Source of the DNA: an uncultured Clostridia bacterium
GTDB lineage: Bacteria > Bacillota > Clostridia > Christensenellales > Borkfalkiaceae
Length of the DNA stretch: 45,000 nt
Assembly: GCA_944359365.1 (NCBI GenBank)
Contig: CALVST010000012.1
Location: 1 to 45,000, forward strand
Reading direction: 5' to 3'
The notes below the pieces were generated by a model, which saw only the letters and a list, made by a program, of their open reading frames with translations, ran no database searches and was not told the origin of the DNA. Of the stretch, positions 3,255-32,652 are shown piece after piece. The position numbers were made by a program, and so were the translations under genes. The first letter of the stretch is position 1, and every line of letters starts with the position of its first letter.

Positions 3255-4553
3255 CTACCTCTCTTCCGCGGCGGAGATCTCCGCGCGCACCCGTTCCACG
3301 GCGGCTTTTGCCTGCTTCATGCTTTCCGCCTCCGCAAAGATGCGCACCACGGGTTCGGTACCCGACGCGCGCACTACCAGACGGGCAACGCCCCTTCTCG
3401 CGCCGTCGATGACTTCGCGGATGCGCTCGTCGCCGAGCACGCGCACCTTGTCTTTGACCTTCACGCTGCCGTTGTATTGGGGCAGAAGTTTTATATCCGC
3501 CAAGCGGGAAAGCCGCTTTTCCGCGATCAGCTCGGCGAGCTTTACCGACGTAAGGATACCGTCGCCCGTGACGGCGTAGTCGGACAAAATGATGTGCCCC
3601 GACTGTTCGCCGCCCACCTGCGCGCCGCTCTTTTGCATCGCGTCGGAAACGTATTTGTCGCCGATGTCCGTGCGGATGAGGCGGATGTTCAGCTTTTTCA
3701 GGAAGTTTTCCGCCCCCATGTTGGTATGCGCCGTGCCCACGACGACCGGCTCGCGCAGTTTTCCTTCCTCCTGCATTTTCGCCGCGAAGATGCAAAGTAT
3801 CTTGTCGCCGTCTACGATGTTCCCCCTTTCGTCGCAGGCGATCAGGCGGTCCGCGTCGCCGTCGTAGGCAAACCCCGCGTCCGCGCCCGATTCGAGCGTC
3901 ATCGCGCGGATCCGTTCGGGATGCAGCGCGCCGCAGCCCTCGTTCACGTCAAGCCCGCCGCGGTTGGTGCCCGATGCGACCACTTCCGCACCCAGGCGCG
4001 CAAAAACCTCGGGCGCGATCCTGCCCGCCGCGCCGTTGGCGCAGTCGAGCACGAATTTTTTGCCTTTCAGCGAACGGGAACAGCACCCCGCGAGGCAGGC
4101 GCAGTACGCCTCTTCCCCGCCGAGCGGGCGCATCCTGCCCATCGACAGCGGCCCAGCGAAGGAGTATTCGCCCATAAAGTGCTCGGCGCGCTTTTCCTGC
4201 TTTTCGGGGAGCTTTCTGCCGTCATCGCCGAACACTTTCAGCCCGTTGTATTTTGCGGGGTTGTGCGACGCGCTCACCACCACGCCGAAATCGGCGCGCC
4301 TTTCGAGCACGAAGTGCGAAACCGCCGCGGTAGGCAGCACGCCGCCCCAAAGAACCTCGCCTCCGCCCGACGTTACGCCCGCCGCAAGCGCGAGCGCGAG
4401 CATATCCGAAGACACGCGCGTATCCTGCCCCAAAACCACCTTCGGCGCCTGTTTCATGCGGGAAAGGGCGTTGCCCAACGCGAATGCGGTGCGCGAGGTA
4501 AGTTCTTCCCCCGCCACGCCGCGGATGCCGTCCGTTCCGAATAAATTCCCCAT
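3255..4553 (-). CDS. glmM: phosphoglucosamine mutase
   Basis: 432 residues, slightly shorter than the usual 445-450. It converts glucosamine-6-phosphate to glucosamine-1-phosphate, the step after GlmS. All hallmarks are visible: FGTDGIRG at the N-terminus, the phosphoserine loop SASHNP (catalytic Ser about 96), the metal loop DGDADR, the sugar-binding GGEQSGH and the phosphate-binding RASGTEP near the C-terminus. The start is ATG at 4553 because GGAGGG lies 4 bases upstream and the protein then begins MGNLFGTDG as in homologues; the open frame upstream is spurious. The order glmM-glmS puts two consecutive enzymes of the UDP-GlcNAc pathway in one transcript. Confidence 0.97.
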   Translation of the reverse strand: MGNLFGTDGIRGVAGEELTSRTAFALGNALSRMKQAPKVVLGQDTRVSSDMLALALAAGVTSGGGEVLWGGVLPTAAVSHFVLERRADFGVVVSASHNPAKYNGLKVFGDDGRKLPEKQEKRAEHFMGEYSFAGPLSMGRMRPLGGEEAYCACLAGCCSRSLKGKKFVLDCANGAAGRIAPEVFARLGAEVVASGTNRGGLDVNEGCGALHPERIRAMTLESGADAGFAYDGDADRLIACDERGNIVDGDKILCIFAAKMQEEGKLREPVVVGTAHTNMGAENFLKKLNIRLIRTDIGDKYVSDAMQKSGAQVGGEQSGHIILSDYAVTGDGILTSVKLAELIAEKRLSRLADIKLLPQYNGSVKVKDKVRVLGDERIREVIDGARRGVARLVVRASGTEPVVRIFAEAESMKQAKAAVERVRAEISAAEER

Positions 4554-10459: not shown

Positions 10460-11515
10460 TTATCTTTTTTTCCGCTCGTACCTTACGAACAGATACGCCG
10501 CCGCGAGCCCCGCGGCAAAGAGCGCCAGCCCGAGCGAAAGGTCGAGCGCGAACGGCGTACCCGCCGCCCAGCTTTTATATACCGCGTATACGTCCGGATT
10601 GAAAAACATGGTCACGACCGAGCCGAGAGAAAGCCCGGTGATGAGGAAAAAGGCGGGCTTTTTCTTCTTTTCGAATATTTTGTCGAGGACTTTGGAAAAG
10701 GTTATAAGCCCCGCCGCAAAGCCTATCACAAGGCAAAGGTACACCAAAAATATCTGCGGATTTTCCCGCCAATAGGTAAGATGCACCGAATCCATCAGCG
10801 GGGTGAAGTAGCCGAACACCATCAAAAGCGCCGTTGCGGAAAGCCCCGGAACGATCTGCGTGACGGCGACGATGTACCCGAGAATGAGGAACAAAACGTA
10901 GTGGTACCACTGCAAATTTTCAAGCGAATGCGAGCCGGATACGCACAGCGAGGAAATAAGGCTGATCGCGACGGGCACCGCAAGCCCCAAAACAAACAGC
11001 AAAACCCGCCCCGCGCTCTTCTTTTCCCCCTTGATCTCGTCCTTCACGGCGGGAAAAGCGCCGAGCATCAGCCCCGCAAACAGCCCGATGACGGTGAAGG
11101 GCGCGACGTCGAGCACGCGCTGTATGGCAAAGAACCCCGCCACGAACCCGACGGCGAGCCCGATGACGACGGGCAGCAGGAAGGCGGCGCACTTTTTGAA
11201 TTTTTTGAATATGCTGCCGATGGCGAACAGCAGTTTGCAGTACAGCTTGAATATGATGGCGACGGTAGAGCCGCTGATGCCCGGCACAATGACCGCAAGC
11301 CCTATAAAGACGCCCAAAACGCCGCTCTTTGCCACCTCTTTCCCGTTTTTATACTTTAAGCTCTCCGCAGTGACGCGCTCCTCTTCCCGCGGCGCGCCTT
11401 CCCCGCTTTCGGGGGCTGCGTTATCGGTGCTCTCTCCGTTTAAGACGGGCACCGCCTGCGCGGCGTCCTCTATTTCGGGCGCGGAAGCGCTCTCTTTTTT
11501 TTCCTCTTCTTCCAT
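10460..11515 (-). CDS. popT: DUF368 family membrane protein, probable undecaprenyl phosphate translocase
   Basis: 351 residues. The first ~60 are a Glu-rich soluble tail; the rest has about eight to nine hydrophobic segments. The inverted-repeat hallmark of DUF368 is visible: VIVPGISGSTVAI near 75 and QIVPGLSATALLM near 220. DUF368 members (PopT) have been shown to return undecaprenyl phosphate, the lipid carrier for wall polymers, across the membrane for re-use. The C-terminus is basic (RYERKKR). The ATG at 11515 has its RBS inside the end of dxs (CAGGAGTAG) and only 3 bp separate the genes, so the two are a tight operon linking isoprenoid synthesis to lipid-carrier recycling. The long acidic N-terminal tail is not part of the core fold. 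Confidence 0.87.
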   Translation of the reverse strand: MEEEEKKESASAPEIEDAAQAVPVLNGESTDNAAPESGEGAPREEERVTAESLKYKNGKEVAKSGVLGVFIGLAVIVPGISGSTVAIIFKLYCKLLFAIGSIFKKFKKCAAFLLPVVIGLAVGFVAGFFAIQRVLDVAPFTVIGLFAGLMLGAFPAVKDEIKGEKKSAGRVLLFVLGLAVPVAISLISSLCVSGSHSLENLQWYHYVLFLILGYIVAVTQIVPGLSATALLMVFGYFTPLMDSVHLTYWRENPQIFLVYLCLVIGFAAGLITFSKVLDKIFEKKKKPAFFLITGLSLGSVVTMFFNPDVYAVYKSWAAGTPFALDLSLGLALFAAGLAAAYLFVRYERKKR

Positions 11516-19259: not shown

Positions 19260-19605
19260 CCCGCCCGCACTTTTATACACTTGTGAAGAAATTATTCTTC
19301 CACAATGTGTAAATATTTGTGTATAACTCTCACAAACAGCCTTTCTGTTTCTTTTTTCTTTCCTCTCCTTTTTTTTTACTTCTGTTTTTTATCCACAGCT
19401 GTCCCCTTTTTCCACATTTTCTCTCCCTGTTTTCAACAAAAAATTCCACCGCCTTCTTCCCCTTTTTATCCCCCCTTTTGCTTGCTTTTTGCCCGCTTTT
19501 TCTATATAATGTTATGCAACGGGAAGAGCGGTTTCCCTTTTTCCACAAATGCACACCTCTTATTATTATTCATATCATTTAAAATAAAAATTTAAATAAA
19601 TATCT
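19260..19605. other. probable chromosomal replication origin (oriC)
   Basis: The gap between divergent rsmG and dnaN has a cluster of DnaA-box-like 9-mers: perfect TTATCCACA at 19389-19397 (+); TTATACACA at 19318-19326 (-); TTATACACT at 19273-19281 (+); TTTTCCACA at 19408-19416 (+) and 19539-19547 (+); weaker TCTTCCACA at 19296-19304. The strand is strongly pyrimidine-rich from 19330 to 19505. An A/T-only stretch at 19559-19603 would suit a DNA unwinding element. Gene orientation switches here. No dnaA gene is adjacent. Confidence 0.8.
19482..19510 (+). promoter_or_regulatory. dnaN promoter
   Basis: TTGCTT (19482-19487), 17-bp spacer, perfect TATAAT (19505-19510), inside the origin region. 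The leader of about 125 nt contains the 19539 DnaA-box-like site, so DnaA could influence dnaN transcription. Confidence 0.65.
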
Positions 19606-25696: not shown

Positions 25697-26248
25697 TTAA
25701 GCAATTCGAAAATACGTTTGCGGAGCAGTCAGATAAGAAGATATTGCATCCGATATAATGTCCGCCATTTTATAAACAAGGCTGAGGCGCGTAAGATTTA
25801 ATAAGGAATAGTTGAAGACAGATTTTTCGGCAACAATGCCCATTATGCTTACATCTCCGATGGGCGCAAACTTTTTATTTGCTCCGAGTCCGGGGCGCAA
25901 GCCCTTGTTTGCGATTTTAATAAGCCCTATATCGCCGGCATCGCCTACAGCAGCATCAATAGCAATAATTTTTGAGTTTGGATGTGTTTTTTTGAAAAAG
26001 TCACCCAAATATCTGACTTCCTTAGCTGTAATAGGACGCTTTAACGTCCCATACACATAGCTTTGCTCAAATAATTTTTTTTCAGAGATCATAGTGCCGC
26101 AAATTGGTCCTAAACTGTCTCCAATGGCGAGATCGCTTCCGATGCAGAGTATCACTGGTGGTGTTTGTGTGTCCTTTAGAAAATTATTCAGTGTCATGAT
26201 CAGACCGGATGCTGCCATCTTATTGAACATATTGAAAGAATATTCCAT
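25697..26248 (-). CDS. yyaC: YyaC family sporulation-associated protein (DUF1256)
   Basis: 183 residues. The pattern VILCIGSDLAIGDSLGPICGTM, YVYGTLKRPITAK, IIAIDAAVGDAGDIGLIKI (each under 20 residues when taken separately), GLRPGLGANK and IGDVSIMGIV matches YyaC/DUF1256, related to germination proteases and hydrogenase-maturation peptidases. In Bacillus yyaC lies right next to spo0J (parB), so a location near parAB is conserved. The start is ATG at 26248 with AAAGGT 6 bases upstream; a TTG at 26275 has none. It is leftward, against the local trend, and AT-rich like the island. It suggests a sporulation ancestry. Confidence 0.85.
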   Translation of the reverse strand: MEYSFNMFNKMAASGLIMTLNNFLKDTQTPPVILCIGSDLAIGDSLGPICGTMISEKKLFEQSYVYGTLKRPITAKEVRYLGDFFKKTHPNSKIIAIDAAVGDAGDIGLIKIANKGLRPGLGANKKFAPIGDVSIMGIVAEKSVFNYSLLNLTRLSLVYKMADIISDAISSYLTAPQTYFRIA

Positions 26249-26719
26249 TGCGTTACCTTTTATTTCTTGCGCCAATCACTTTTTTAATATTATGCGCTTT
26301 TAAATTATTTAGCGCACATTAAATCTGCGCCAATAATATTTTCAGCGCACTTTTGCCTTGACGACTGTATTTTAATTCTTGACACATTTGAGCTTTTTTA
26401 TACTTCTCTTTTTAAGTCAGATTTCATAATAGCGCAATTTTACATTCAAGCGCAATAATATTATGCACCGCATTTTATATTTTGCGTTTAATTTTTTGTT
26501 CAGGTGCTAAATTGCTTAGTGCAAATTATAATATATGCGTCCAAATAAAATATTGCTTTCAGCGCATAAAATTTTAACGAATATCGCCAAATTCTGTTGT
26601 TATATTCACAGTGTTTTCTTCTGATTTAATCACGCGTATATTAATTTTATTGCGTCACTTGAAATGATGTCTAAAATCGTGTCTGCGTCTTTAAAATTAT
26701 TGCAAAAAATAGTCATATT

Positions 26720-26760
26720 AGCCATATTTTTGGCTCTTTTTTGCAAAAATATGGCTTTTT
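26720..26760 (+). terminator. terminator-like hairpin with no gene before it
   Basis: Perfect 13-bp stem AGCCATATTTTTG/CAAAAATATGGCT (arms 26720-26732 and 26744-26756), 11-base loop, then TTTT. No protein gene on the plus strand lies upstream within 1.9 kb, so it would end an unknown transcript or be a structural DNA element. Confidence 0.55.
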
Positions 26761-26775
26761 AAAAAACCTCTTCAG

Positions 26776-26851
26776 ACGATTTCAGACAGAATAATTAATT
26801 CAAAATTTCAAAATTTTCGACTAAAATTTCGCCCATTTTGTCTGAAATCGT
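26776..26851. repeat. inverted repeat, 17-bp arms
   Basis: Arms 26776-26792 and 26835-26851 match at 16 of 17 positions (core CGATTTCAGAC / GTCTGAAATCG). They are separated by 42 bp of A/T-rich DNA. A related word, GTCTAAAATCGTGTC, occurs at about 26669. Confidence 0.7.
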
Positions 26852-26965
26852 GCAGTTTTTGCATTAAATTTACGAAAAAGCATAGGTCTCGATCTCCAGA
26901 TCTGCATGGCAGTATGTTTTGGCTTATAGTGGTTCATTTTGCTTTCAGCAGCTGTTGGTAATGTC

Positions 26966-27005
26966 TGTAAAACTGAATGTTTCATATGAAACATTCAGTT
27001 TTACA
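26966..27005. repeat. perfect 40-bp palindrome with parS-like core
   Basis: The two 20-bp halves are exact reverse complements around the centre 26985/26986. The core GTTTCATATGAAAC (26979-26992) is parS with CATATG instead of CACGTG. The outer arms (CTGAAT and GTAAAA side) differ from those of the 52-bp palindrome. Confidence 0.85.
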
Positions 27006-27425
27006 TTTTGCGCTTACATTTTATTTTATATTAAATGTTCATGCGCTGCTAATTTTACAGGCATTTTTATATATACGCATACATATGAGCTGTTTTTAAG
27101 CATTTGTATGCTAATTTTTTGCACTGTTTATAATAAAATTTCCGCCGAAGAATTAGCACGATAATGTTATATAAGCGCGTTATATTATTAATTTAAAATG
27201 ACAATTAAGCGTCAAAATTAATTTAAATTCTGCTAAATTCTGACGCAAAAATTATTAAAAAATTTACGAAGTTTTAGTTTAATGCGTCTTATAGCTTACA
27301 TACTGAATAGGGTATTCTGCAGCTGAAATACAAACCGATTAATAGGAAGTTGATGTATTTGCGTAAATATTGGGCAGATTCGTGCAGTTTCTTTAATATG
27401 TGTTTGCGTTTTACCTTTCAAGCGG

Positions 27426-27477
27426 ATTTTCTCATATAAAACATGTTTCATATGAAACATGTTTTATATGAGAAAAT
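27426..27477. repeat. perfect 52-bp palindrome with parS-like core
   Basis: The two 26-bp halves are exact reverse complements around 27451/27452. The core is again GTTTCATATGAAAC (27445-27458), here extended to ACATGTTTCATATGAAACATGT. The arms continue as AT-rich sequence different from the 40-bp palindrome. Confidence 0.85.
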
Positions 27478-27502
27478 TATAAACGCGCATATATTTTTTA
27501 TA

Positions 27503-27516
27503 GTTTCACGTGAAAC
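27503..27516. promoter_or_regulatory. parS: parS centromere site
   Basis: GTTTCACGTGAAAC, the perfect 14-bp core of bacterial parS; with the flanks it matches 15 of 16 positions of TGTTTCACGTGAAACA. It lies 45 bp right of the 52-bp palindrome centre, about 8 kb from oriC and 3.3 kb before parA-parB, where ParB would load. Confidence 0.9.
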
Positions 27517-27534
27517 ATCTAAAATCTTGGGAGA

Positions 27535-27548
27535 GTTTCATATGAAAC
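27535..27548. promoter_or_regulatory. parS-like site with CATATG core
   Basis: GTTTCATATGAAAC, identical to the cores of the two long palindromes but without extended arms. It is 32 bp centre-to-centre from the canonical parS. Confidence 0.7.
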
Positions 27549-28729
27549 ATTTAAAAGGGTATTTCCAACTAAAAAATGTGATGCGCCTACATATTTTTTG
27601 TGATAATTTATGATGATTTCATAAAAAAACAGTGGTTTTAAAAAATTTTTTATATAAATTCTTGTCTTTTTTAGATAATTATGGTATGATATTAACAACT
27701 GATTTACTAAGCAATCCGATGTCACACGCGCAGCTGATCCGACTCCAAAAGGCTATTTTTGAATTGATCTATAAAGGGGGTTCGGAGTTTATAAAGGGAA
27801 AGTTTTTAAATTTGCGCCATTAATTTTTAATGCGCTAATCAATCTGTGTGGCGCTAAGATATATAACAATCGAAACTGAGCAGTACAAGCAGTGACAGCA
27901 TTAAGATGCTTATTTAGGAGACTAATCTCATCAAAGCAAAGTTTTGCAACTTGTTTAAAAAGCAACGTATATGTACAAACTTATTGGAGCGGCTACAAGT
28001 CCGCCAAGCCGGCGTAATCAAGGGCTGATCTCTTAAATAAGTTTTTTTACAGGCGGCAGTTTGTCTTTTCACTGCTTTATTGAAAAGAGGAATTGCTTTT
28101 CGGTAAAAATCTTTTGACTGAGATAAAGGCTGACAAGTGAAGGATCCGGCCGCGACGCAATGCTCTTACGGAAAACGGATTTGTTTTCCCGCCCTGCGCA
28201 GTCGGAATGGTTTGGCGAAACGGTTTTCAAAGCTGAGATGAATAAGGCTTTGCAATTGGCGGAACAGGTTGGTTGCTTGACTAATCGGTTCATTGGCAAT
28301 AAACAGCAATATTTTTTGCGCCGCGTATTGCAGGTGACTGTTCATAGGGGCGCTAAGCTAAATCCATAGTAGCGCAGAGTCTTTTTTGGCGGCGAATTTA
28401 AACAAATATTTCGGAATATTTGTTATTGCAATGCGATATGTGCGATTCGTATGCGTGAGGATATTCCGTCCGTGAAACCGCCACGGCAATGCCGCAGTAT
28501 GAGAAGAAAGTTATTGCTTAAAGACGGGGCGATAGCCGTGCATTGCAAAATGTAAGCCGAGCCATCGGAACATCGGAAAGATTGCTGAAATCAGTAAAAA
28601 AGGGTTTTTTAAAGGGAACATTCAAAAAATGTTCTTATCAATATTATATAATATATAAAATAAATATAGTAAAAACGCCGCTCTGAAAAGAGCGACGGGA
28701 AGATATCGAACTTAGCAAGGAGAAACTTC

Positions 28730-30754
28730 ATGAGCAAAACAGCAAAAATCGTACTGTGGAGCTTGCTGGGCGTCATACTCATCATCATTTTGGTGTCCGT
28801 TTTGACAAGCTGGCTCAACAGCGGAAGAACGATAGATTACTCCGAAGTCGCGGGGTATGTGCAGAGCGGCGAGATCGACCGCATCGTAGTGGACGACTAT
28901 AACCTTATTTGTTATAAAGACGGAAGAGTCGTATACGAAGCGACCTTCGGCCGTTCGGACGAAGAGATCGCTCTGCTCATCAATTGGGCAAACGATACGA
29001 AACTTGACTTCACATTTACCTTTACCGATCCGAACGCAGGCAGCTTTATCTCTTACCTGATCCCGATCATCGGCGTGGTGCTGGTCTGCGTCGTGTTCTG
29101 GCTGTTGATCCGTCAAACGCAGGGCGGCAGCAGCAAGGCGATGAGCTTTGCCAAGACGAAGGCGAGAGTCAATTCCAACATCAAGGTGCGTTTCACCGAC
29201 GTTGCGGGTGCGGAAGAGGAAAAGCAAGAGCTTGCGGAAGTCGTGGAATTTTTGAAGGCTCCCCGCAAATTTTCCGATCTCGGCGCGCGCATCCCGAAAG
29301 GCGTGCTTTTGGTAGGGCCTCCGGGAACAGGTAAAACTTTGTTTGCCAAAGCCGTTGCGGGCGAGGCGAACGTTCCTTTCTTCTCCATTTCCGGCTCCGA
29401 CTTCGTGGAAATGTTCGTCGGCGTCGGCGCGTCGAGGGTAAGAGACCTTTTCGATGCGGCAAAAAAGAGTCAGCCGTGCATCGTGTTCATCGACGAAATC
29501 GACGCAGTCGGGCGTCAAAGGGGCACGGGGCTCGGCGGCGGACATGACGAACGCGAACAGACGCTTAACCAACTGCTCGTGCAGATGGATGGCTTTGAAA
29601 CGAACGAAGGCATCATCGTTATGGCTGCGACCAACCGTGCGGATATCCTCGATCCCGCACTGCTTCGCCCGGGGCGTTTCGACAGGCAGATACACGTCAA
29701 CCTGCCCGACGTGCGCGGCAGGGAGGCGATCTTAAAAGTGCACGCGCGCAACAAACCGCTCGCACCCGACGTAAACTTTAAGATCCTTTCCCGCATGACC
29801 AGCGGCTTTTCGGGAGCAGATCTTGAAAACCTTCTCAACGAAGCGGCAATTTTGACCGCCCGCGCGAACAAAAAGATGATCGGCAACAAAGAGCTGTTCG
29901 AGGGGATCAACAAAGTGTTGCTCGGCCCGCAGAAGAAGAGCCGACTCGTTACCGAATCGGACAAGCGCATCACGGCATATCACGAAAGCGGCCACGCGAT
30001 CATCGCAAAGCTGTGCAAACACTGCGATCCCGTGCAGGAAGTTTCCATCATTGCCCGCGGCATGGCTGCGGGGTATACGATGACTCGCCCCGACAACGAC
30101 GACAACCACATGACCAAGGCAAAGCTGACGGACCTTGTCTGCGAACTTTTGGGCGGACGCGTTGCGGAAGAGCTCGTCATAAAAGACGTTTCCACGGGTG
30201 CATCCAACGACTTGCAGAGGGTTACCGAGATCGCCCGCAAAATGGTCACAGAATGGGGCATGAGCGAGCGCGTCGGGCTTGTGACCTATCAGTCTGACAG
30301 CCCTATATTCCTCGGAAGGGATATGGAAGCCCACAATTCGTACAGCGAAGAAACGGCGGGCGTCATCGACGAAGAAGTGCACAAGATCATCGAAGCCGCG
30401 CACGAGCGCGCAATGAAACTTCTTACCGAAAACAGGAAAGTGCTTGACAATATGGCGCGTGTGCTCATCGAACGGGAAACGATCTACACCGAAGAGGTAG
30501 ACATGCTCCTCGAGGGCGCGACGGTAGACGAAGTTTACGCCCATATGGACAAATTTGAAAAAGCGGAATCGGAAAACCCTTTCAAGCGGTTTGAAAATGC
30601 AGACGGCGGCGAAGTAAACAGGGCGAAACAGGAAGCCGAGGCTGCCGAACAGGCCGCCAAAGAGGCACAAAAGCCCGCCCCCGAAAAGAAAGAGGGCGCT
30701 CCTTCCGATGCCGAAGAGAAAAAGCCGGACGAAAAAGAGGATAAAGGCGAATAA
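28730..30754 (+). CDS. ftsH: ATP-dependent zinc metalloprotease FtsH
   Basis: 674 residues. It is a hexameric membrane protease for damaged or regulatory membrane proteins. Two membrane segments (about 7-27 and 106-127) flank an extracytoplasmic domain. Walker A GPPGTGKT is at 196-203, Walker B IVFIDEID at 251-258, the second region of homology ends in RPGRFDRQ, and the zinc site HESGH is at 418-422 with a downstream Asp in [10 protein letters not shown]. The C-terminal ~60 residues are a charged, low-complexity Glu/Lys/Ala tail. The ATG at 28730 has AAGGAG 8 bases upstream. The tilS-hpt genes that often precede ftsH are absent. Confidence 0.97.
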
Positions 30755-30849: not shown

Positions 30850-31626
30850 ATGGGAAAGATCGTTTCGTTTTCCAACCAAAAGGGCGGCGTGGGCAAGACC
30901 ACGACTTGTGTGAACATGGCGGCGTATATTGCCGCGACAGGCAAAAAAGTACTGCTTGTGGACATCGATCCGCAGGGCAACGCGACGACGGGGTTGGGTT
31001 TTTCCAAAAGTTCGCTGAAAAAATCCGTCTATAACGTGCTCATCGACGACGAAGAGCGCGCTTCCGAAAATATTTTGAAAACGGAAGCGGAGGGGTTGGA
31101 TCTGCTGCCCTCGAACATAGACCTTGCCGGTGCGGAAGTAGAGCTTGTGTATAAAAGAAAGCGCGAAATGATCTTGAAGACCAAGCTCGCCGAGGTGAAA
31201 GACTCGTATGATTATATCATGATCGACTGTCCGCCTTCGCTCGGGCTGCTCACCATCAACGCGCTCGCCGCTGCCGATTCGGTCATCATCCCCATTCAAA
31301 GCGAATATTACGCGTTGGAAGGTCTTTCGCAGCTGATGAACTCCATCACCCTCGTGAAACAGCACCTGAATCCCGCGCTCGACGTGGACGGCGTCGTTTT
31401 GACCATGTACGACAGCCGCTCGCTCATCTCCAAGCAGATCGCGGACGAGATACGCAAGTTCTTTACCCGCAGGGTTTTCGAGATCGTCGTGCCGCGAAAC
31501 ATCCGCCTTGTCGAGGCGAGCTCTTACGGCAAGCCCATCATGCTGCACGATCCCAAATGCGCGGGGGCGCGCGCTTACAGGGCGCTTACACAGGAATATT
31601 TGGATAAGCAGGCTGAAAACAAATAA
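30850..31626 (+). CDS. parA: chromosome-partitioning ATPase ParA (Soj)
   Basis: 258 residues. It is a deviant-Walker ATPase that binds DNA as an ATP dimer and is released by ParB, moving origins apart. The deviant Walker A KGGVGKTT is at 11-18 after the SNQ start, VDIDPQGNATTGLG follows, Walker B IMIDCPPSLG near 122, and the length is that of chromosomal ParA without an N-terminal DNA-binding domain. The ATG has AAGAGGT 7 bases upstream. It is followed 96 bp later by parB. Confidence 0.96.
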   Translation: MGKIVSFSNQKGGVGKTTTCVNMAAYIAATGKKVLLVDIDPQGNATTGLGFSKSSLKKSVYNVLIDDEERASENILKTEAEGLDLLPSNIDLAGAEVELVYKRKREMILKTKLAEVKDSYDYIMIDCPPSLGLLTINALAAADSVIIPIQSEYYALEGLSQLMNSITLVKQHLNPALDVDGVVLTMYDSRSLISKQIADEIRKFFTRRVFEIVVPRNIRLVEASSYGKPIMLHDPKCAGARAYRALTQEYLDKQAENK

Positions 31627-31722: not shown

Positions 31723-32652
31723 ATGAAAACGAACAGAGGATTGGGCAGGGGGCTATCGGCTCTGTTTTCCGATACGGAAGAGGCATATGAAAACGCAGCC
31801 AAACAGCCGTTTGAGGCGGAAAGCGGACCGTTCCCCGAAGAAATAAAGGGGCTGATCGAGGTAGATATCGATCTCGTGCGCCCCAATCCCAACCAACCGC
31901 GCAAACATTTTGACGAAGACGCGCTCCGCGAGCTTTCCGATTCCATCAAAAAACACGGAATGATCATGCCTATCGTCGTCAATAAAATGGAAGGCGGCAG
32001 GTACATGATCATCGCGGGCGAACGCAGGTACCGCGCGGCAAAAATGGCGGGAAAAACGACTATCCCCGTCGTTGTCCGCGAATATTCAGACCGCGAAATT
32101 AAAGAAATATCTCTCATAGAAAACTTACAGCGCGAGGATCTGAACCCCATAGAAGCGGCTACGGCTATGAAACAGCTCATGGACGAGTATCACCTCACGC
32201 AGGAAGAGCTTGCCGAGCGCATCGGCAAAAGCCGCCCGGCCGTAACCAATACGCTTCGCCTTTTGTCGCTCTCTCCCGACGTCATAAATTTGGTTTCATC
32301 GGGCAGGCTCAGTGCGGGGCACGCGCGTGCGCTCGTCACCCTGCCGGAAGACGCGCAGTACAAACTTGCGAGCGACACCATAAAGGACGGTCTTTCCGTC
32401 CGTGACGTGGAACGCAGCGTGCGCGATTATTTTGCTTCTCCCGAAGAGCTTGCAGAAAAAAAAGACAAAAAGAAACTGCAAGTTTCCATCGAACTGAAAG
32501 ACCTGATCGAGCGGATGCGGCATACTTTCAAAACCAAAGTTTCCCTGATCGGCAACGACCGCAAGGGAAGGATTTATATCGACTATTACAACACCGATGA
32601 CCTCGACCGCATCAGCGAGATCGTGGATATGGCGGAAAAGCTGGAAAAATAA
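31723..32652 (+). CDS. parB: chromosome-partitioning protein ParB (Spo0J)
   Basis: 309 residues. It binds parS, then clamps and slides on DNA using CTP. The N-terminal RGLGRGLSALF is the segment that stimulates ParA. The CTP-binding motifs GERRYRA (99-105) and ENLQRE (133-138) are intact, a helix-turn-helix lies at about 158-183, and a C-terminal dimerisation domain ends the protein. Arg in RYRA is the residue that catalyses CTP turnover in homologues. It is the only ParB-type gene in the window and should recognise the parS at 27503. The ATG has AAGGAGAG 9 bases upstream. Confidence 0.96.
   Translation: MKTNRGLGRGLSALFSDTEEAYENAAKQPFEAESGPFPEEIKGLIEVDIDLVRPNPNQPRKHFDEDALRELSDSIKKHGMIMPIVVNKMEGGRYMIIAGERRYRAAKMAGKTTIPVVVREYSDREIKEISLIENLQREDLNPIEAATAMKQLMDEYHLTQEELAERIGKSRPAVTNTLRLLSLSPDVINLVSSGRLSAGHARALVTLPEDAQYKLASDTIKDGLSVRDVERSVRDYFASPEELAEKKDKKKLQVSIELKDLIERMRHTFKTKVSLIGNDRKGRIYIDYYNTDDLDRISEIVDMAEKLEK

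Follow-up and report, generated by a model that had tools for sequence, protein, structure and literature searches.

A parS cluster in Candidatus Borkfalkia with long, perfect palindromes of changing arm sequence

Four parS-like sites lie in a single intergenic region of Candidatus Borkfalkia, and two of them are the exact midpoints of perfect palindromes of 40 and 52 bp. This raises the questions of which protein reads the variant core, CATATG, carried by three of the sites, and of what has made and kept the long complementary arms around two of them. The region was found in a 45,000-nucleotide stretch of DNA, the whole of which was analyzed and is called the window here. It is AT-rich (30 to 33% GC vs 52% for the whole window) and is flanked by yyaC on the minus strand and by an ftsH-like gene, parA, and parB on the plus strand, with dnaN, DnaA-box-like 9-mers, and the GC-skew minimum approximately 7.5 kb to the left of the parS sites. 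The features are as follows.

19318..19547, no strand: probable oriC, DnaA-box-like 9-mers upstream of dnaN (19644), at the GC-skew minimum
25697..26275, minus strand: yyaC (spore protease YyaC family), bounding the intergenic region on the left
26966..27005, no strand: S1, perfect 40-bp palindrome with core GTTTCATATGAAAC at 26979-26992
27426..27477, no strand: S2, perfect 52-bp palindrome with core GTTTCATATGAAAC at 27445-27458
27503..27516, no strand: S3, canonical parS core GTTTCACGTGAAAC
27535..27548, no strand: S4, GTTTCATATGAAAC, 32 bp after S3, with 14-bp symmetry only and conserved flank sequence
27503..27561, no strand: S3-S4 block, the most widely matched intergenic piece across 18 genus loci
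27662..27690, plus strand: promoter-like TTGTCT-N17-TATGAT (a sequence reading), downstream of S4, conserved in the genus
28730..30754, plus strand: FtsH-like AAA/M41 protease, bounding the intergenic region on the right
30850..31626, plus strand: parA
31723..32652, plus strand: parB, the sole ParB_N protein found in the own genome, with parS-type residues R171, T177, S182, and G199

The original prediction for this locus had located CATATG-core sites at 26979, 27445, and 27535 and a canonical site at 27503, and all four lie exactly there; the palindromes that it described around two variant sites are likewise present, at 26966 to 27005 and 27426 to 27477. The CATATG sites (S1, S2, and S4) are symmetric and agree with GTTTCACGTGAAAC at 12 of 14 bases, differing at the center alone. 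As DNA hairpins, S1 and S2 have computed energies of -16.7 and -21.9 kcal/mol, respectively. In the own-genome assembly (1.94 Mb in 76 contigs, 89.7% complete), GTTTCATATGAAAC occurs only as S1, S2, and S4 (reversed-pattern control, 0) and GTTTCANNTGAAAC only as S1 to S4, and the variant core is not scattered over the genome. Perfect palindromes of more than 36 bp elsewhere, a point that the original prediction had brought up, are absent from the window, where the runner-up even palindromes are two of 16 bp each. In a control of 400 kb of own-genome DNA (20 stretches, about one-fifth of the genome), however, there are 50 non-parS perfect palindromes with a minimum length of 14 bp; two of them extend to at least 22 bp, and one of these two is 52 bp long (C1:104142-104193; positions 4142 to 4193 of locus L153). 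It has convergent reading frames on both sides and is probably a two-way terminator.

The intergenic region holds further elements. Between yyaC and S1, a conserved element at 26743 to 26876 is matched in 10 of 18 genus loci over 36 to 135 bases at 71 to 92% identity and contains a 17-base inverted repeat (26776-26792 and 26835-26851) with no Rfam match, and a hairpin with a T run at 26721 to 26760 resembles, by eye, a plus-strand intrinsic terminator. On the other side, positions 27662 to 28729 comprise the promoter-like motif and then approximately 1 kb, unmatched in the 18 genus loci, up to the ftsH-like gene. Rfam gave no matches across the window at gathering scores and none in 27550 to 28729 even at E values up to 1.

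The cluster is shared by relatives. An exact GTTTCANNTGAAAC was found one or more times in 29 of 40 genus genomes, and the loci of 28 of these were read; the set of 29 region loci excludes L046, a match of genome G009 on another contig, and so does not cover G009's own cluster. S1, S2, a canonical S3, and S4 recur upstream of parB in 27 of the 28 genus loci read. S3 is present in the same proportion (27 of 28), the exception being L058 (genome G002), with no canonical site in the stretch examined. Usually, S2 lies 48 to 118 bp before S3 and S1 lies farther upstream. The exact CATATG core stands at +32 bp from S3 in 25 of the 27 loci having S3, i.e., at the same place in relatives, as the original prediction would have it; the remaining two S4 sites have one mismatch, accompanied by a 31-bp spacing in one of them (L043, orientation unturned).

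An exact GTTTCANNTGAAAC is missing from 11 of the 40 genus genomes, five of which (G012, G019, G022, G026, and G027) also lack a ParB match. When 32 genus loci around parB were inspected, the cluster was seen in 18 and not in 14. For eight of these 14, the contig ends closer to parB than any S4 (3.56 kb), and the other six (L069, L070, L073, L074, L080, and L084) reach 3.78 to 4.79 kb from parB, the S4 range elsewhere being 3.56 to 6.26 kb; the six contain no parS site even at up to two mismatches. Since the promoter-like motif beside S4, found in 5 of 7 tested cluster loci, is missing from the six as well, their contigs probably stop short of the cluster. The CATATG core is rare outside the genus: an exact copy was found in 7 of 297 genomes of the order, own genome counted, and in none of 21 genomes from other genera of the family, and four of the six CATATG loci outside the genus have a canonical parS within 1.1 kb. 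No S3-S4 pair was found in viral contigs.

With regard to the identity of the core, every exact GTTTCANNTGAAAC around parB has a pyrimidine-purine center, namely, 63 of 63 in 32 loci of the genus (42 TA, 18 CG, and 3 CA/TG) and 73 of 73 in 48 loci of other genera (49 CG, 23 CA/TG, and 1 TA). When one mismatch was allowed outside the center, 33 of 37 sites in other genera had such a center. Other centers were seen away from parB or at unplaced spots: L058 has a GA center at a distance of 1.4 kb from the CATATG site of that locus, and other contigs of G006 and G009 have GC and GA centers, respectively. These exceptions are taken as chance. As for the reader, domain and ParB-query searches of the own genome each found one ParB_N protein, in an assembly whose 89.7% completeness means that a paralogue could be missed. 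According to the available part of PMC7383237, ParB proteins of the parS type have R173 and G201, and Noc has Q173, K179, K184, and R201 (Caulobacter numbering). The window ParB carries R171, T177, S182, and G199 at these specificity places (R, T, S, and G, none of them a Noc-type residue), as read off with a constant offset of 2 that also fits its Q160, G168, K169, S170, N176, and R202. The Noc site signature given in the same part of that paper, with A as its first base and C as its sixth (TATTTCCCGGGAAATA), is absent, all four sites having G1 and A6. Thus, the best reading of the CATATG core is that of an ordinary parS variant with TA in place of CG as its central pyrimidine-purine step. 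Because a single ParB with parS-type residues was found and the pyrimidine-purine rule holds, the CATATG sites appear, from their sequence, to be TA-centered parS for that same ParB, and would most likely be bound by it, 4 kb upstream of its own gene. All four sites would then serve this single ParB and make up the chromosomal parS cluster, or centromere, of a Borkfalkia species. The second ParB or Noc paralogue that had been proposed is therefore not borne out by the own genome, and the premise that Noc-type sites are changed at central positions disagrees with the available part of PMC7383237, where the Noc site (NBS) differs at positions 1 and 6. What survives of that interpretation is a parS-like site with arms kept complementary.

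We then turn to the arms. A total of 37 CATATG sites at S1 and S2 were counted across the genus, a number that includes the S1 sites of L053 and L060, which abut contig ends and could be truncated or folded by assembly, unless they are explicitly excluded. Perfect palindromes of at least 28 bp were found at 22 of the 37 sites (20 of 35 without the two contig-edge cases), whereas 10,000 permutations of right flanks among genomes gave a mean of 0.185 such sites and a maximum of 3. The S1 and S2 palindromes are not due to chance. Their lengths are bimodal, 16 to 20 bp at 14 sites and at least 26 bp at 23 sites, with a range of 26 to 52 bp for the long class inside contigs. At S3, palindromes of at least 28 bp occur in 3 of 27 loci, and the enrichment over permuted flanks is less marked (22 bp or more in 6 of 27 vs a permuted mean of 1.63 and a maximum of 7); at S4, the palindrome is 14 bp in 24 of 25 cases and 16 bp in one, and none of the 25 is extended to 22 bp. 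The same stretch around S3 (27 loci) contains seven other palindromes with a length of 14 bp or more, and none of them extends to 22 bp; genus loci contain 80 non-parS palindromes of this minimum length, of which 14 do extend that far, several of these being terminator-like by eye.

The arms are AT-rich (mean GC, 0.33) and unrelated between species, the mean longest string shared by the 23 arms being 2.84 vs 2.81 for shuffled arms; the earlier observation in this genome, that the outer arms differ and the core alone is conserved, thus extends across species. Besides, the arms end abruptly: past the first mismatch, pairing over the next eight positions is 0.244 of 168 pairs, which is the chance level. 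A single internal mismatch is seen in a few palindromes, e.g., at S2 of L034, at S1 of L050, and in L058 (36 bp). The arms are otherwise perfect and the core is kept in relatives, in line with the idea that self-complementarity is kept by selection or by a copying mechanism. A mobile palindromic unit was rejected as an explanation, arm sharing being no better than chance.

By locus, a perfect palindrome of at least 26 bp is present at cluster sites in 16 of 28 and absent in 12. On a ParB tree of 24 genomes (midpoint-rooted for drawing, without an outgroup, and without G007, G017, G061, and G062, for which there was no full-length ParB among the loci used), the extended-palindrome label changes nine times vs a shuffled mean of 8.3, and 419 of 500 shuffles are as low. 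Because extended palindromes are scattered on this tree, they have been gained and lost faster than species split. Asymmetric CA/TG cores of the genus are never extended (0 of 6), even with the center pair ignored. Other genera show extension to 22 bp at 12 of 49 canonical sites, several of which follow directly on parB within A/T tracts, and 26-bp arms at 2 of 23 CA/TG-core sites when the center pair is ignored; the extended sites of both kinds lie mostly in A/T tracts. Five loci from other families of the order (L124, L127, L128, L130, and L135, at approximately 10906 to 10950) have a canonical parS just after parB in an A/T-tract palindrome, as if parS doubled there as the parAB terminator. 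Among other palindromes noted, L090 (4650 to 4677) has a perfect one of 28 bp made of two inverted DnaA boxes, approximately 0.9 kb upstream of S1, and loopless perfect palindromes of 26 to 34 bp lie within approximately 0.6 kb downstream of parB in L097 (10973 to 11006), L094 (10975 to 11000), and L068 (11500 to 11525).

parS is a symmetric site that is bound by ParB and at which SMC is loaded. We lean toward the explanation that hairpin-primed template switching at ParB-bound symmetric parS sites repeatedly rewrites one arm from the other, a mechanism for the arms that is at most probable. Where a fork stalls or slows, the nascent strand would fold back at the symmetric core of S1 or S2 and copy its own arm, so that one flank would be replaced by the reverse complement of the opposite flank; the likely trigger would be fork stalling at these sites through bound ParB or ParB-loaded SMC. 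Recurrent events of this kind would create perfect palindromes, hold the arms complementary, and swap the arm sequence fast, and rewriting would halt at constrained flanks, i.e., at S4 and on the right side of S3, S3-S4 being the constrained part of the cluster and S1 and S2 the less constrained. In the available text of PMC7202029, template switching at quasipalindromes is described as self-copying of the nascent strand by which inverted repeats become perfect, and it is raised by drugs causing fork stalling or DNA-protein crosslinks. The signature of template switching is present at the Borkfalkia sites, where arms are perfectly complementary, end abruptly, and show no cross-species conservation, although a selected structure could also give it. 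In the two longest S3 cases (L035 and L054), the right arm halts before the conserved stretch that precedes S4; this and the lack of any extended S4 fit a copying process that spreads into unconstrained DNA only.

Other observations count against copying or leave it undecided. Extension also occurs in other genera and at other cores, and long perfect palindromes are also found off parS. Furthermore, SbcD scored over the search cutoff in the own genome, and hairpins should therefore be attacked there; for the same reason, loss of the hairpin nuclease SbcCD was rejected as the cause of the palindromes. Half-decayed palindromes are few, which also suits selection. The similarity of flanks between related species is uneven and does not single out one arm as the donor in copying: averaged over 23 within-clade pairs at each site, drawn from 19 of the 28 loci, the right flank scores slightly higher than the left (5.83 vs 4.63 at S1 and 4.59 vs 3.09 at S2), and at S1 of the clade G014/G036/G063 the left flank is the more alike (scores of 11, 7.5, and 6.5 vs 7, 4.5, and 3), as though the right arm there were a mirror of the left, opposite to that average. 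The within-clade values hardly exceed the between-clade ones (4.67/4.25 at S1 and 4.03/3.39 at S2).

Selection on DNA structure is the rival to be weighed most carefully, and we consider it a tentative possibility, as we do the ParB-nucleated cruciform of the original prediction. Negative supercoiling near oriC would extrude a cruciform or hairpin with a half-parS at its tip, which would set the clamp loading or sliding of ParB or the loading of SMC; selection would act on self-complementarity alone, so that the arms would drift with compensation. Perfect pairing despite unrelated arms, the stability of the computed hairpins, the TA centers, and the bimodal lengths of S1 and S2 all agree with this; yet 12 of 28 loci manage without a perfect palindrome of at least 26 bp (the 36-bp one of L058 having its mismatch), in no phylogenetic pattern, and lengths inside contigs spread as widely as 26 to 52 bp. 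Moreover, S4 shares the core and is never extended, the CA/TG cores of the genus are unextended though their mismatch would sit in the loop, and the arms end abruptly where tolerated mismatches might be looked for. A combined version is more doubtful still, namely, a structure-read centromere whose ParB sites act partly via a cruciform or hairpin of free sequence and kept self-complementarity, with template switching induced by ParB or SMC as the arm-rewriting engine in every species.

A role of the hairpins as RNA, in terminating or attenuating transcription between yyaC and the divergent ftsH-parAB unit, would be in keeping with the terminator-like A/T-tract palindromes at parS just after parB in other families of the order and with the position of the own-genome 52-bp palindrome between convergent genes. 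S1 and S2, however, lie between divergent genes and upstream of the conserved promoter-like motif, their arms are AT-rich with no consistent T tract by eye, and the window has no Rfam match; we regard this reading as improbable. In the genus, intrinsic terminators as such are disfavored, given stems that are AT-rich and not GC-rich and genes that are divergent, T tracts having been judged by eye. That a second ParB-like, Noc-like, or other dimeric protein reads the CATATG core is very improbable. S4 keeps its CATATG core in 25 of the 27 loci that have an S3, and its flanks are conserved, which does hint that the TA center of S4 may matter, but the own genome has one ParB_N protein with parS-type residues, the NBS departs from parS at positions 1 and 6 and not at the center (available part of PMC7383237), and TA, CA/TG, and CG centers are mixed among relatives. 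Least credible of all is an assembly artifact in which metagenome contigs are folded back. The named genus records do look like metagenome bins, and two palindromes run right up to the end of a contig (L053/L077, 54 bp, and L060/L082, 120 bp); against this, 20 palindromes of at least 28 bp are found among 35 interior sites with different sequence on either side, in assemblies from several projects, and they are always centered on the same site.

Compared with known parS/ParABS clusters, the Borkfalkia locus has the same 14- to 16-bp palindrome, a canonical copy, several sites near oriC and parAB, and a ParB with parS-type residues; it differs in the TA center of three of its four sites, in the fixed 32-bp S3-S4 pair, and in the long, perfect, species-specific palindromes around S1 and S2 and sometimes S3. 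For palindromes of mitochondrial control regions, we know of no conserved protein-site core. They are likewise unusually long and situated in a replication-control region, according to the available part of PMC1762429. Noc and its NBS resemble our case in that a ParB-related protein reads a parS derivative, whereas the NBS is altered at positions 1 and 6 in the available part of PMC7383237 and the Borkfalkia sites are altered at the center only, with no Noc found. In the quasipalindrome mutations of E. coli, as far as the available text of PMC7202029 goes, repeats are also perfected by arm-to-arm copying, which is stimulated there by fork stalling; the Borkfalkia case differs in being inferred from natural sequences, in lying at a protein-binding centromere site, and in having arms replaced between species. 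Template switching that creates and maintains hairpins, in the available part of PMC8794818, similarly yields long perfect stems without compensatory point mutations, but the hairpins there are RNA, whereas ours lie in a centromere region where no sign of transcription was found.

GTTTCATATGAAAC was not found in the literature text searched, a body of text that most subscription papers lie outside, and none of the papers containing TTTCATATGAAA, TTTCATGTGAAA, or TTTCACATGAAA is related to parS by its title. Nor were extended palindromes at parS described among the matches listed, as judged by title or the start of the abstract and within the same scope. A parS cluster in which some sites repeatedly gain new perfect palindromic arms is a real and conserved feature and, to the extent of these searches, an undescribed one.

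Prediction of parS sites in these bacteria would benefit from the pyrimidine-purine center rule. If the arms are indeed copied, the cluster would be a natural hotspot of hairpin template switching fixed to a defined protein-bound site, the 28 genomes of different species would serve as replicate histories of it, and the loading of ParB and SMC would be linked to local mutation. If, instead, the structure is selected, a centromere would be recognized partly by shape and not by sequence, and a structure-read centromere with rewritten arms, if true, would be a bacterial parallel to fast-evolving centromere DNA.
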